Origin: Verrucomicrobiaceae bacterium
GTDB lineage: Bacteria; Verrucomicrobiota; Verrucomicrobiia; Verrucomicrobiales; Verrucomicrobiaceae
Reading direction: 5' to 3'
Assembly: GCA_016795375.1 (NCBI GenBank)
Contig: JAEUHJ010000045.1
Location: 1-64,000 of the forward strand
Length of the DNA: 64,000 bases
The position numbers and the translations under genes are program-made. Of the stretch, positions 17,448-23,949 are shown piece after piece. The notes below the pieces were generated by a model. The model saw nothing but the letters and a program-made list of their open reading frames with translations, did no database searches and was not told where the DNA came from. Numbering within the stretch: position 1 is the first letter of the stretch; the number at the start of each line of letters is the position of its first letter.

Positions 17448-17461
17448 AGCCGCTTCGCGGC

Positions 17462-17608
17462 AATGACGAATGACGAAACCAGAAGGACGAATGAAATCCC
17501 GAGCCCGAATGATTCAAAGCTCCCGACGGCAGGCTGAAGTACCCCGGCTTGCTGCCAGGGAAAATTTTCCGGGCATTCGTCATTCGTCATTCGGATCTCG
17601 TCATTTCG
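17462..17608. repeat. Inverted heptamer-repeat element, site A
   Basis: Left arm 17462-17496 reads in 7-bp steps AATGACG, AATGACG, then degenerate units AAACCAG, AAGGACG, AATGAAA. Right arm 17574-17608 reads CATTCGT, CATTCGT, CATTCGG, ATCTCGT, CATTTCG, the reverse complement of the same unit. The arms enclose 77 bp. The element overlaps the 5' end of the BatD/E gene and the right arm encodes IRHSSFGSRHF just before its signal sequence. The same word family recurs at 22.9-23.0 kb. Confidence 0.85.
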
Positions 17609-20121
17609 CCGCCCTTTTGTTTTGCTCTTTATTACATGCCGCCGCCCTGGCGGCGACGGTACGCGCCTACATCCAGCCGGAACGCGCCCACACCGGCCAG
17701 GTCGTCAACTACGTCATCACCGTGCAGAATGGCACCGTGCAGAGCCTGCCACAGTTGCGCCTGCCGGTGCAGGTCGGCATGAACTCCGGCGTCTCCACCT
17801 CGCAGAACATCGCATTGCGCGGCAACCAGCGCGTGTTCTCCACCCAGCTCGCCTGGGGTGTGGCGGGAACGGAGCCGGGTGAGTTTGTCATCGCGCCGCA
17901 GGAGGTGCTGGTGAACGGGGAGATCCTCAAAACGAACGAGGTTCGTCTCGTCGTCACCGAGCCGCCCACGCCCGCCACGCCGCCGGACGCTGCGGAGGAT
18001 GCCAGCACGCCGCTCTTCCAGATCGAAGTCGGCAAAACGGAAGTCTATCAAGGCGAGGTGGTGCCCATCAGCGCCACGCTCTATGTGCCGCGCAGCATCA
18101 CGTTGCGTCGTGTGGGGCTCATCGATGTGAGCAAGAGCGACTTCGCCATCGCCCGCTTCCCGCAGCAGGCCGACCAGGCGCCGACCTCGATCAACGGCAT
18201 CGATTACATCACCGTCACCTACCGCAGCACGCTTTCCGCGCTGCATGCGGGTGATTTGAAGGTCGGACCCGCCACCTGCGAGCTGTTGTACGAGGTGTAC
18301 AATGAGGACGATCAGCGCCAGATGCGCCGCGGACTGCCCTTCGGCCTGATGATGAGGGACTCGGAGACGCGCAAGCAGGTCGTCAAAAGCCAGGAGGTGA
18401 AGATGAAAGTCCTCCCCCTGCCAGCCGAGGGCAAGCCAGCCCACTTCTCAGGAGCCGTCGGAGATTTCACCCTGAGCGCCACCGCCACGCCGAATGAACT
18501 CGCCGTGGGCGATCCGCTGGCCGTGGACATCACCATCGACGGCGTGGGAAACTTCGACGCGCTCAATCCGCCCTCCCTCATGCCGCCGGACGGCTGGAAG
18601 GCCTACCCTCCGCGCCGCTACAACGTCGATGGCCCCGTCGATCCCAATCTCACGCCCACCGCGCAGCGCCGCATCGGCTACTCGATGGTGTTTGTGCCTG
18701 AAAAGGAGCACAAGGAGCTGCCGCCGTTTGAGCTGAGCTTCTTCAGTCCCACGGAGAAAAAATACATTGTCGCGAGCACACCGGCCATCCCGTTGCGCAT
18801 CAAGCCAGGGGCCATGGCTGCGGCTGTCGGCGGCGTTGGCAGCACGGACACTGGCGTCGCCCCAAAACCGCCGGTCGTGCAGCAACCGAAGCCGGACATC
18901 AGCGACATTCTCATGACCTTGCCAGCGAAGGCGGACTGGCTCGCCTCCGCCACGACCGCCGGCGCACCGCTCACCACCAGCGCACGATTCTGGGCTGTAC
19001 AGTCCGTCCCGGCGCTGCTGGTCATCCTGGCGATGTTTCTCGCATGGTTCCGTCGCCATCGTGAGGAGAGCTCCCGTGGTTTGCGCGGTGAATTGCAGCA
19101 ACTGTGGCACGGGCTGCATCAGCAGGATCTCGACGACCGCGAATTCCTCCAACGCGCCGCCCATTTCATCCACCGCAGTCATCCTGGCGCGGTGGAGGAC
19201 ATGGAACTGAAGAACATCCTGCATCGTTACGAGACCCGGAGCTTCATGGCGGCGGCGGCGCAAGGTCAGGAGCTGGATTCCGGCGAGCGGGCGCGCATCC
19301 TGGGCTCGCTCTCTCCTTTGCTGAAACACGCGGCCCTGTTCGCTGCCGCGTTCGTTTTTCTCGGGGGGGGGGCCTTCGCCGCCGATGAATCACCGGATGA
19401 AATCTACCGCCAGGCCCGCGAGGCGCTGGAGAAGGGCAAGTTCACCCAGGCGCAATACCTCGGTGAATCGCTCACCAAAAAGAACCCGCCCGCGTTGAGT
19501 GCCGCGGTCTTCGCGCTCATCGGTCATGCACGTTACCGGCAGGAGGATTTCGGCCGCGCGGCCCTGTGGTACCAGCGCGCGCAATTGCTGGAGCCTGCGA
19601 ATCCCGAGGTGCGGCAGAACCTGCGCCATCTCGACGAGAAGCTCCGCTTTTTCCGCTTCCAGGGAGATTCGCCGCTGGCAGAATGGAGCCTGATCGTTGG
19701 CAGAAACACCTGGATCATCGCCGCGTCCGCCGGGGTGTGGCTCGTCTTGTTCGCGGTCATGCGCTGCATCCTCGCCTCCTCGCGCAAATCCAGCGGCGGA
19801 ACCTGCGCCCTCGTCCTCAGCATCGTCGGTGCGGTGATTTTCCTTCCGTCCGCCGCCTTTGCGGCCATCCGCCCCGATCCCGCCCGGCGAGTGAAGGACA
19901 TGGTGGTTGTCACTGCGAAGGAGGTCAGCGCCTACACCGCTGCCACGCTCACCTCCGGCAGCGTCATCGATCTGCCGCCGGGCAGCCAGATGCGTCTGCT
20001 CGAAAAACGCGGTGCGTGGAGCTACATCGAAATCCCCGGCGCGGATGAACCCGTGCGCGGCTGGGTCGAGTCCGCCGTGTACACCCCGTTGTGGCCGTGG
20101 GAGGCGGGATTGCTGCCCTGA
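17470..20121 (+). CDS. Fused BatD/BatE-like protein with C-terminal SH3-like region
   Basis: 883 residues if the ATG at 17470 is used; 17491 and 17509 are alternatives. The true start is obscured by the heptamer repeat that makes up the N-terminal 45 residues. A signal-like stretch (FAALLFCSLLHAAALAA) ends near residue 62. BatD beta-rich domains follow (about 63-500), a membrane helix (FWAVQSVPALLVILAMFLAW, about 515), then a second signal-like stretch at 617-637 containing a G10 run. After that comes a BatE-like half: TPR repeats (about 640-725), two membrane helices and a small SH3-like domain at the end. BatD and BatE are usually separate genes. The position of the G10 run between them makes the fusion suspicious. 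Confidence 0.82.
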   Translation: MTKPEGRMKSRARMIQSSRRQAEVPRLAARENFPGIRHSSFGSRHFAALLFCSLLHAAALAATVRAYIQPERAHTGQVVNYVITVQNGTVQSLPQLRLPVQVGMNSGVSTSQNIALRGNQRVFSTQLAWGVAGTEPGEFVIAPQEVLVNGEILKTNEVRLVVTEPPTPATPPDAAEDASTPLFQIEVGKTEVYQGEVVPISATLYVPRSITLRRVGLIDVSKSDFAIARFPQQADQAPTSINGIDYITVTYRSTLSALHAGDLKVGPATCELLYEVYNEDDQRQMRRGLPFGLMMRDSETRKQVVKSQEVKMKVLPLPAEGKPAHFSGAVGDFTLSATATPNELAVGDPLAVDITIDGVGNFDALNPPSLMPPDGWKAYPPRRYNVDGPVDPNLTPTAQRRIGYSMVFVPEKEHKELPPFELSFFSPTEKKYIVASTPAIPLRIKPGAMAAAVGGVGSTDTGVAPKPPVVQQPKPDISDILMTLPAKADWLASATTAGAPLTTSARFWAVQSVPALLVILAMFLAWFRRHREESSRGLRGELQQLWHGLHQQDLDDREFLQRAAHFIHRSHPGAVEDMELKNILHRYETRSFMAAAAQGQELDSGERARILGSLSPLLKHAALFAAAFVFLGGGAFAADESPDEIYRQAREALEKGKFTQAQYLGESLTKKNPPALSAAVFALIGHARYRQEDFGRAALWYQRAQLLEPANPEVRQNLRHLDEKLRFFRFQGDSPLAEWSLIVGRNTWIIAASAGVWLVLFAVMRCILASSRKSSGGTCALVLSIVGAVIFLPSAAFAAIRPDPARRVKDMVVVTAKEVSAYTAATLTSGSVIDLPPGSQMRLLEKRGAWSYIEIPGADEPVRGWVESAVYTPLWPWEAGLLP
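19363..19372. repeat. G10 homopolymer inside the BatD/E gene
   Basis: Ten consecutive G encode three glycines in FVFLGGGAFAAD, at about codons 631-634, in a stretch that looks like a signal peptide for a separate BatE protein. A change of one base would split the fusion into two reading frames. Confidence 0.85.
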
Positions 20122-21680: not shown

Positions 21681-22382
21681 ATGAAAACTCGTCTCATCGC
21701 CTCCCTCTCCACCGCTGCCCTGCTGTCCGTCACCTTGTTCAGTCTCCATGCCGAAGAAAAAGGCGGATGGCAGAAGTGGTTCGCTGACGGCACGCTTTCA
21801 GGCGGGCAGGTCATCAGCGGCCAGGCCTCTTACAAGGTGGAAGACGGGGTGCTCGTCGGCACCACCGTCGATGGCAGTCCGAACACCTTCCTTGCCATCG
21901 GACCGTTCAAGGACTTTGAACTCGAGTTCGAGGTGAAGGTGGACGATGAACTCAACTCCGGCGTCCAGGTGCGCAGCCATATCGCCAAGGAGGGTGATCC
22001 AGCACCCGAAGGCAGCAAGAACGGCAAACCGCTGCCTGCCGGCCGTCTCTACGGTCCGCAGTGCGAAATCGCCATCAACGGCACCGCCGGTGATTTTTAC
22101 GACGAGGCCCGTCGCGGCACCTGGTGGAGCATCCTCACGAAGACCGAGTCCGTGCGCAGCGACGCGGCGAAGGCTGCCTTCAAGAAGGGCGAATGGAACC
22201 GCTACCGCATCGTGGTGAAGGGTGATCACTACCAGAGCTTTGTGAATGGCGTCCCTACTGCTGATTTCACCCAACCCGGCGACCCAGAAGGCCACATCGG
22301 CTTCCAGGTGCATGGCATCAAGAAAGGCGCCGGCCCCTACAGCGTGCGCTGGCGTAATGTGAAGTTCCGCGCGGCGAAGTAA
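21681..22382 (+). CDS. Secreted DUF1080 (3-keto-disaccharide hydrolase-type) protein
   Basis: 233 residues. A signal peptide covers about residues 1-24 (ending LFSLHAEE). The mature part is a jelly-roll of the DUF1080 family: GWQKWFADGTLSGGQVISG, then YKVEDGVLVGTT, DFELEFEVKVDDELNSGVQVRS and a C-terminal GHIGFQVHG. DUF1080 domains are abundant in Verrucomicrobia and Planctomycetes and some hydrolyse 3-keto-glycosides. The substrate here is unknown. Its 3' end overlaps the convergent minus-strand gene by 46 bp. Confidence 0.9.
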   Translation: MKTRLIASLSTAALLSVTLFSLHAEEKGGWQKWFADGTLSGGQVISGQASYKVEDGVLVGTTVDGSPNTFLAIGPFKDFELEFEVKVDDELNSGVQVRSHIAKEGDPAPEGSKNGKPLPAGRLYGPQCEIAINGTAGDFYDEARRGTWWSILTKTESVRSDAAKAAFKKGEWNRYRIVVKGDHYQSFVNGVPTADFTQPGDPEGHIGFQVHGIKKGAGPYSVRWRNVKFRAAK

Positions 22383-23005
22383 GCGAACGCGAGCAGCAAA
22401 ACGCACGAGGCCGTCACTGCCTGCGGGCGACGCCACCACGGTGTCAGGCGGACGGGGATGGCCTTTGACCGGTCACCCGCGAGCAGCAGCATCCATTTCG
22501 GCGGCGTGGCGGGATCGGCCCCGTCGTGTGTCCACAGCAGCACGTCGTGAAGTTTGCCCTTTGGCATCTCAAAGACGATTTCCGGTGTCTCACTGTGCCA
22601 GCGCCACGCCGAAGTGGTCAAGGCGTGTGGCTGCGATTCCGTCTCGGACGGCAGATAAGAAGCAGGAGCAAACTCCGCCCAGTTGTCATGCTGTGAGATG
22701 CTGGCACTGGCGATTTGCGCCAGCGGTACGAGGGCGTCATCACGACGCAGTCGGATGGGATCGAGCAATGCGTCCTTCGCCGCCGACTCATCCACGATCA
22801 GCGGATTGCCACCGTGGTCGGCGGTGATTTCGAGCAGCACCTCCGCGTCTGGCAGCAAGGTGAGCTTCGCGCTCAAAAACTCCGCGCCATGACCGAAAAC
22901 ACACAGAGGAGCGTTGAGAATGACGAATGATGAAATTCGAATGACGAATGAGCGGATGGCGTGCTGCATCGGCGATTCGTCATTCGGGAATTCGGAAATC
23001 GTCAT
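22337..23005 (-). CDS. Membrane-anchored protein of unknown function with repeat-derived N-terminus
   Basis: 222 residues from the ATG at 23005, which overlaps the stop of the preceding NHL-propeller gene as ATGA. A later ATG at 22969 is also possible. The first 35 or so residues, including the hydrophobic SFVIRISSFVILNAPL, are encoded by the heptamer-repeat element and seem to serve as a signal or anchor. The rest is a beta-rich exported domain followed by a C-terminal membrane helix (TASCVLLLAFAYFAARNF). I do not recognise the family. The 3' end overlaps the DUF1080 gene. Confidence 0.65.
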   Translation of the reverse strand: MTISEFPNDESPMQHAIRSFVIRISSFVILNAPLCVFGHGAEFLSAKLTLLPDAEVLLEITADHGGNPLIVDESAAKDALLDPIRLRRDDALVPLAQIASASISQHDNWAEFAPASYLPSETESQPHALTTSAWRWHSETPEIVFEMPKGKLHDVLLWTHDGADPATPPKWMLLLAGDRSKAIPVRLTPWWRRPQAVTASCVLLLAFAYFAARNFTLRQRTL

Positions 23006-23008
23006 TTC
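22921..23008. repeat. Inverted heptamer-repeat element, site B
   Basis: Left arm 22921-22955 in 7-bp steps: TGACGAA, TGATGAA, ATTCGAA, TGACGAA, TGAGCGG. Right arm 22974-23008: GATTCGT, CATTCGG, GAATTCG, GAAATCG, TCATTTC. The arms are inverted and share words with site A. The right arm contains both the TGA stop of the NHL gene and the ATG of the next gene. Confidence 0.85.
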
Positions 23009-23949
23009 TTGAGGTTCCACCTCAAGACACGGCCCCACTGGTTCCATTCGGTTTCGAGGATGTTGCCATCGTTGTCGAAGGTGATTCCGTGCGGGCTGGT
23101 CACCACGCCTTGCTTCCAGTCTTTCGGCTCGATCTTCGGCGTGTTGGTTGTTTGCGGGCTGGTGCCGAGGTCGGCGACGCGCTTATTGTCCTTGTCCCAG
23201 ACGCTGACATTGCCGGCGATCTCGGCCACGCACATCAGATCACCGTGGAAGCTGGCGGAGCTTGGATTGCGCATCCCGGTGGCGATTTCGCCGATGAAGG
23301 CGCCGTCGAGCCGGGTGTGCAGCATGCGCTTGTGGCCGCGGTCGCAGATCATCACGCGCGCGGGTTCAAAGCGGCGGTCGATGAAAATCTTGTGCGCGTT
23401 GGCGAGCTTCAGCGGCTCGCCCGGGCCGCCGAAAACGCTCTTGAACTTGCCTTCACGGCTGAAGACGAAGATGAAGCTCTGGCCGTAGCCATCGACGACA
23501 TAAATGTCGCCGTTCGGGGCCACGTCGCAGTTCGTGAGCTTGAGACCCTTGCCGATCTTGTCGGCGGGGAACTCGCTCGTCGGGATGGTCATGAGCACCT
23601 TGCCTTCGAGGTCGCACTTGATGACCTTTTGCTCGCCGAGCACGGCGGCGAAGATGAACTCGTCCCCATTGTCCTTGCGGATGACAAAGCCGTGCAGCGA
23701 CTGCGGCAGCGGCAGCGCCTTGATGAACTTGCCGTCTTTGCCATAGACCTGGATGCCGGCGTTCGCCTCCTGGACGCTCACATAGATGTTTCCGGCGGCA
23801 TCGACGGCTATCTCGCCGTGGCCGTTGCCGATGGTTTCCTTGCCAGGCGGCGGCTGGATGAAGTTCGGGACGAATTCATAGGCCACCTCAGCGGCGGCGC
23901 TGCCGGCGAGGGCCATGACGGACAGGAGGGAGAGTGTGCGGTTTTTCAT
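23002..23949 (-). CDS. Secreted NHL/SMP-30-type beta-propeller protein
   Basis: 315 residues. Signal peptide at about 1-20 (LLSVMALAGSAAAE). Repeated propeller blades are visible: GEIAVDAAGNIYVSVQEAN, then CDVAPNGDIYVVDGYGQS, and HGITFDNDGNILETEWNQWG, the last two typical of six-bladed NHL-repeat lyase/hydrolase-like proteins. It is probably periplasmic. The ligand is unknown. The stop codon lies within the heptamer repeat and overlaps the next gene's start. Confidence 0.87.
   Translation of the reverse strand: MKNRTLSLLSVMALAGSAAAEVAYEFVPNFIQPPPGKETIGNGHGEIAVDAAGNIYVSVQEANAGIQVYGKDGKFIKALPLPQSLHGFVIRKDNGDEFIFAAVLGEQKVIKCDLEGKVLMTIPTSEFPADKIGKGLKLTNCDVAPNGDIYVVDGYGQSFIFVFSREGKFKSVFGGPGEPLKLANAHKIFIDRRFEPARVMICDRGHKRMLHTRLDGAFIGEIATGMRNPSSASFHGDLMCVAEIAGNVSVWDKDNKRVADLGTSPQTTNTPKIEPKDWKQGVVTSPHGITFDNDGNILETEWNQWGRVLRWNLKK

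Follow-up and report, generated by a model that had tools for sequence, protein, structure and literature searches.

A dispersed heptamer repeat as the probable source of a new predicted export signal at a gene junction in Verrucomicrobiaceae

In Yersinia pestis, the predicted signal peptide of YPO1552 consists in part of an RU-2 repeat (Delihas 2007, PMC2759123), and in Rickettsia, palindromic elements are inserted and translated in frame within protein-coding genes (Ogata 2000, 2002, reviewed in PMC10969869); the kind of event described here is thus already known. In this study, we analyzed a 64,000-nucleotide stretch of DNA from a Verrucomicrobiaceae bacterium (hereafter the window), the named relatives of whose genome include Prosthecobacter MAGs. 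We consider it very probable, from comparison of the sequences, that a MITE-like heptamer element has replaced the junction between two overlapping genes of this stretch and that its 3' arm now codes for a new predicted export signal of the downstream protein, P0001. The features of the locus are as follows:

23002..23949, minus strand: P0002, an NHL/6-bladed beta-propeller gene with its own signal peptide, directly upstream of P0001 in most genomes
22337..23005, minus strand: P0001, a 222-residue open reading frame with a predicted export signal, a low-confidence beta-rich domain and a C-terminal transmembrane helix
22975..23006, minus strand: 5' arm of the heptamer element (GAATGACG-type on the transcribed strand), containing the NHL stop TGA (23004-23002) and the overlapping ATG (23005-23003) and standing where relatives have TAA or TAG plus ATG
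22952..22974, minus strand: spacer between the arms, containing an internal ATG (22969-22967) that is the likelier start codon and is kept in genomes G000, G022, G051 and G023
22918..22951, minus strand: 3' arm of the heptamer element (CATTCGTCATTC-type), coding for the hydrophobic core (SFVIRISSFVI) of the predicted signal peptide
22892..22909, minus strand: PLCVFG, an ancestral c-region that precedes the presumed cleavage site (PLCALG or PLCAFG in hairpin-type orthologues)

An earlier, sequence-only reading had described a heptamer repeat at this junction, with the propeller TGA and an overlapping ATG in the right arm, and both descriptions hold: the heptamer words lie in opposed arms that include a perfect 12-nt inverted pair (22938-22949/22975-22986), and the two codons form an ATGA overlap on the minus strand, from which the 222-residue frame begins and runs through SFVIRISSFVIL. 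Directly before the element, in the last codons of the propeller gene, CTTGAGGTGGAACCTCAAG (window 23009-23027, minus strand) forms a short hairpin that is perfect in G000, G023 and G053 and imperfect in G022. The unit of the repeat is GAATGAC / GTCATTC, arranged as two opposed arrays round a short spacer, and the elements resemble MITEs in size (∼70 to 135 bp, within the <600 bp of that class) and inverted arms, with recurrent ends AAATGACGAAT / ATTCGTCATTT. With up to one mismatch, the 11-mer ATTCGTCATTC occurs 9 times in the window compared to 1.24 expected, a count that no shuffle reached, and the source genome carries 43 copies compared to 1 of the reversed control. Across the family, TTCGTCATTCG ranges from 0 to 305 copies per genome; a stricter two-word pattern matched 11 of 288 genomes phylum-wide, and its occurrence beyond Verrucomicrobiaceae was sporadic. 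Four contigs of G023 (C27, C28, C69, and C110) start within or near heptamer arrays, so that the repeat probably fragments assemblies and its copy number is probably underestimated. Y1_Tnp, the one candidate for a mobilizing transposase that was counted (none was identified as the mobilizer), is encoded in 67 of 68 genomes, and heptamer copy number is correlated with it at a rho of 0.46 in the genus. Our literature search on the heptamer, or on heptamer repeats in Verrucomicrobia, returned no paper.

The composition of the unit bears on its capacity to code. Since 7 and 3 share no common factor, a GTCATTC array can be read in any frame, giving SFVIRHS without a stop in all three, and the opposite strand gives E*RMTND in all frames, that is, one stop and one ATG per 21 nt. 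This any-frame property is shared by ∼3% of heptamers (80 of 2,340 circular, strand-specific units).

P0001 matched no family in Pfam and NCBIfam searches with the 222-residue protein; AlphaFold gave a mediocre model of it (pLDDT 71), for which a fold search in the PDB returned no match. Orthologues are nevertheless present in 55 of the 68 family genomes, and nearly all carry a signal peptide at the N terminus, as assigned here and throughout by hydropathy, charge and position. In one of these genomes (G031), a TPP riboswitch (66 bits) lies downstream of the orthologue (L103 1653-1764). The heptamer-type N terminus is common to four species (G000, G022, G051, and G023), where MT.SE.PNDES.M....[IL]RSFVIRIS.FV[IF]L, with small variations, precedes a conserved G-H-G-A-E-F, and the frame through the repeat is open in all four despite their divergence. 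Where orthologues lack the repeat, this position is taken by an unrelated signal peptide, of the type MRLARSILILAAGGAVLAPLCALG followed by HG in close relatives, as expected if repeat DNA was domesticated, and none of these orthologues shows the same N terminus without the repeat at the DNA level.

The sequence-only reading had taken the overlapping ATG as the start of the gene, which is probably wrong. The n-region from that codon is acidic; the internal ATG at 22969-22967, kept in all four species, gives a signal of 26 residues, close to the 24 to 25 of canonical orthologues, and for these reasons the internal ATG is probably the start codon. Read from there, the N terminus has the features of a Sec signal peptide, namely, a positive n-region (charge +2), a best 12-residue hydropathy of 2.07 and VFG before the His (codon 22891-22889) at which the mature protein presumably begins. 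The same reading had also derived the first ∼35 residues wholly from the repeat, and here only the core, SFVIRISSFVI, stands: MQHAI comes from the spacer and PLCVFG is ancestral, so that with an internal start merely ∼14 residues are of repeat-arm and 5 of spacer origin. The idea that repeat DNA was domesticated as an N-terminal signal thus survives in its essentials, in frame in four species, with the start and the origin of the c-region corrected.

Comparison of the junctions across genomes shows that the element came in by replacement. Heptamers are found at the P0001 junction in six genomes (the four above, G053, and G004, the last from another genus), and in all six the 5' arm of a hairpin seen in relatives is gone, whereas the export context, the c-region and the mature protein are kept. 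The clearest case is that of the sisters G003 and G004, which share 87% and 90% DNA identity on the two sides of the junction: G003 has the stop, the ATG and the hairpin, and in G004, TGACGAATTCCCGAATGACC is followed by a long spacer, GTCATTCGTCATTCG and then CCCTTGTGTGC, a remnant of the hairpin's right arm. In G053, there is an extra host CGATCC at the left and a CCCCCCTGTGTGC remnant at the right, whereas in the window lineage the repeat starts at the propeller stop itself. The different boundaries in G053 and the different spacer in G004 argue for at least three separate replacements, one in the window lineage (four species) and two or more elsewhere at this locus. No clear target-site duplication was found in the sister comparison or in other junction alignments; what is seen is replacement. 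Genomes with heptamers at this junction also have more heptamer copies than the others (p = 6e-4). Within the window lineage, the spacer and both boundaries are largely kept, yet the gene trees do not group the four species as a clade (AU p = 2e-4 with the mature protein and 4e-4 with the NHL gene). A single origin with vertical descent is rejected by these tests, and the junction alleles must therefore have been exchanged by recombination, or lost and regained.

The structure that was displaced is itself conserved. In relatives, the codons of the signal peptide hold a hairpin, GCAGGGGGAGCC..GGCCCCCCTG or variants such as GGGGGAACACGCGTGTTCCCCC, whose exact motif occurs in 22 genomes, once in each and always at the P0001 junction. 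A covariance model places the hairpin at this junction in 41 genomes (35 to 68 bits), of which 26 were used to build the model and match by construction; a 42nd, G058, was added by eye. Elsewhere in every genome the model found nothing above 29.5 bits, and at the junction of the six heptamer genomes it found no match. Codon identity at same-residue positions in the hairpin segment reaches 0.95 among close relatives compared to 0.58 in the rest of the gene, and 0.74 compared to 0.43 in a wider set. RNAalifold reported little covariation because the arms are out of register in the MAFFT alignment, and pairing changes were read by eye. Rfam holds no entry for this hairpin. A role as terminator gained no consistent support: of two loci tested, the scan was positive in G010 (L097) and negative in G017 (L037).

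The junction of P0001 is not the only place where the repeat meets a coding sequence. We surveyed 35 sites in G000 and 45 loci in G023, in which most elements are intergenic and lie just upstream of a start codon; in G000, the upstream stop is sometimes inside the element. The window itself contains a second case:

17461..17605, plus strand: site A, a second heptamer element, which forms the batD 5' end; its right arm codes IRHSSF in the N terminus
17470..20121, plus strand: batD-like gene (PF13584), with its 5' end within the site A element

Among batD orthologues, several relatives have the same element, remnants of it, or none, and in the source genome (G000:C34, L040 and L041, window 17461-17605) a heptamer element lies 5' of each of several bat-operon-like genes (DUF58-like, BatA-like and batD). 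A pectate-lyase-like gene (G000:C61) has the signal SFVILASSFVIPPLANA before ATP, and its 25 homologues divide into 13 with heptamer-type signals, 11 with ordinary ones and 1 that is unclear. Their tree requires at least six changes of signal type, four of them forced by well-supported branches, and some pairs of opposite type have mature parts that are 94 to 96% identical. In G023, at least 7 genes (by eye, among the 45 loci) have complete signal peptides that contain the right arm, such as MRPLCLILSSFVILVSSFA before AERRPNIL and MKRLVLLLSSFAITHSSFG; they include sulfatases, a DUF1080-like gene and others, and the sulfatases may share one common origin. At L222 (1080-1180) of this genome, a heptamer stretch lies between divergent sulfatase-like genes, each outward arm forming the signal core of one of them (SSFVILVSSFA and SSFCILHSSFA). 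Arms used as signal peptides show a weakly supported change from Arg to Leu (p = 0.04 for Leu; 0.12 for loss of Arg). Open frames run through the repeat in P0001, batD, the pectate-lyase-like gene and the G023 sulfatases, as judged from DNA. Within the genus, several further genes for secreted proteins seem to have undergone the same swap of an old signal for a repeat-derived one. The broader proposal sees in the heptamer element a source of signal peptides on which Verrucomicrobiaceae have drawn generally and recurrently, an any-frame adapter by which signals were born or swapped dozens of times in the genus through insertion or inter-copy recombination; we judge it evenly balanced between right and wrong.

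For P0001, the scenario that we favor is that a dispersed element replaced the propeller/P0001 junction. With the replacement went the old stop and the old start, the greater part of the signal peptide, and the intercistronic hairpin's 5' arm. The element's own 5' arm now supplies the propeller's TGA and the overlapping ATG, an ATG in the spacer would probably begin translation, and the 3' arm, open in every frame, would code for the core SFVIRISSFVI; because this core joins the surviving c-region PLCVFG ahead of the His, the mature protein would still be exported. That the peptide works in secretion and that the internal ATG is used is what we infer from these features. The repeat could instead be untranslated intergenic DNA, with the gene starting further downstream, as the position of most G000 and G023 elements just upstream of an ATG might suggest. 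This we hold to be very improbable, as the translation lacks any Met from after residue 13 until about residue 145, and a protein started later would lose its signal together with a large part of the mature domain; moreover, a signal peptide stands at this position in almost every orthologue, and none of the four diverged species has a stop in the frame across the repeat. Nor do we find it probable that the repeat is a passenger, tolerated while export is marginal, with its conservation due to gene conversion with other copies or recent interspecies recombination. The gene-tree incongruence and the supply of donor copies, which number from dozens to hundreds in a genome, speak for such a reading, and gene conversion could indeed account for the nucleotide conservation of the arms: codon identity at same-residue positions in the four species is 0.85 in the N terminus compared to 0.60 elsewhere, but one 37-codon window elsewhere in the gene matches the N terminus (0.857), whereas the canonical hairpin tops every other window. 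Yet the spacer and both boundaries are largely kept in the four species, the frame is never broken, and unrelated genes for secreted proteins have comparable signals of heptamer origin.

A further reading, compatible with replacement by the element, is that one hairpin was exchanged for another, the selected trait being mainly an intercistronic RNA hairpin (acting in differential mRNA stability, attenuation or coupling) and the peptide a by-product. The codon-level conservation of the canonical hairpin and the removal of its 5' arm in each replacement fit this reading, as does the strong folding of the element (z = -4.4 to -5.4; -4.6 for the window segment). Against it, the two hairpins have no sequence in common, the canonical one scored as a terminator in only one of two loci, and the heptamer signal peptides at L200, L213, L219, L221, and L227 have no left arm nearby, so that peptide supply is independent of a hairpin. 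We regard the exchange as rather unlikely to be the main story; a takeover of the old hairpin's role by that of the element is a slightly better prospect, though still a doubtful one. A terminator scan of the window junction found none.

The birth of new signal peptides can seldom be observed. In the present case, relatives with the old and the new signal coexist, the donor sequence is identifiable, and in one case the sister species is still without the insertion (G003 beside G004). The arithmetic of 7 against 3 gives a simple reason why the repeat is translatable whatever the frame. A conserved and unlisted intercistronic hairpin, lying within the codons of a signal peptide, also comes to light at this locus; it is lost at each arrival of the repeat, which makes the function of the hairpin testable.

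Among described systems, RU-2 is alike in that a small dispersed repeat gives an exported protein its signal peptide while homologues elsewhere have unrelated ones; it concerns one locus, one species and another repeat, whereas the heptamer involves several gene families and species, a sister comparison, a replaced hairpin and a 7-base unit readable in any frame. The Rickettsia palindromic elements share the pattern of insertion, a palindromic repeat in frame within coding genes, but the heptamer has arms of tandem heptamers, occurs in a different phylum and is found mainly at gene 5' ends and in signal peptides. In G023, in-frame heptamer residues also lie away from the N terminus, in an RmlB-like dehydratase (L208, DSSFDIRHS) and a cyclase-like protein (L197, LRHSSFVIRH), and these resemble Rickettsia insertions. 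Like REP/REPIN sequences with their RAYT (Y1) transposases, the heptamer elements are short inverted intergenic repeats, present in many copies between co-directional genes and in genomes nearly all of which encode Y1_Tnp, but their arms are tandem heptamers and the correlation of copy number with Y1_Tnp is moderate. Within the literature searched, the recurrence, the any-frame unit and the replacement of a hairpin look new.
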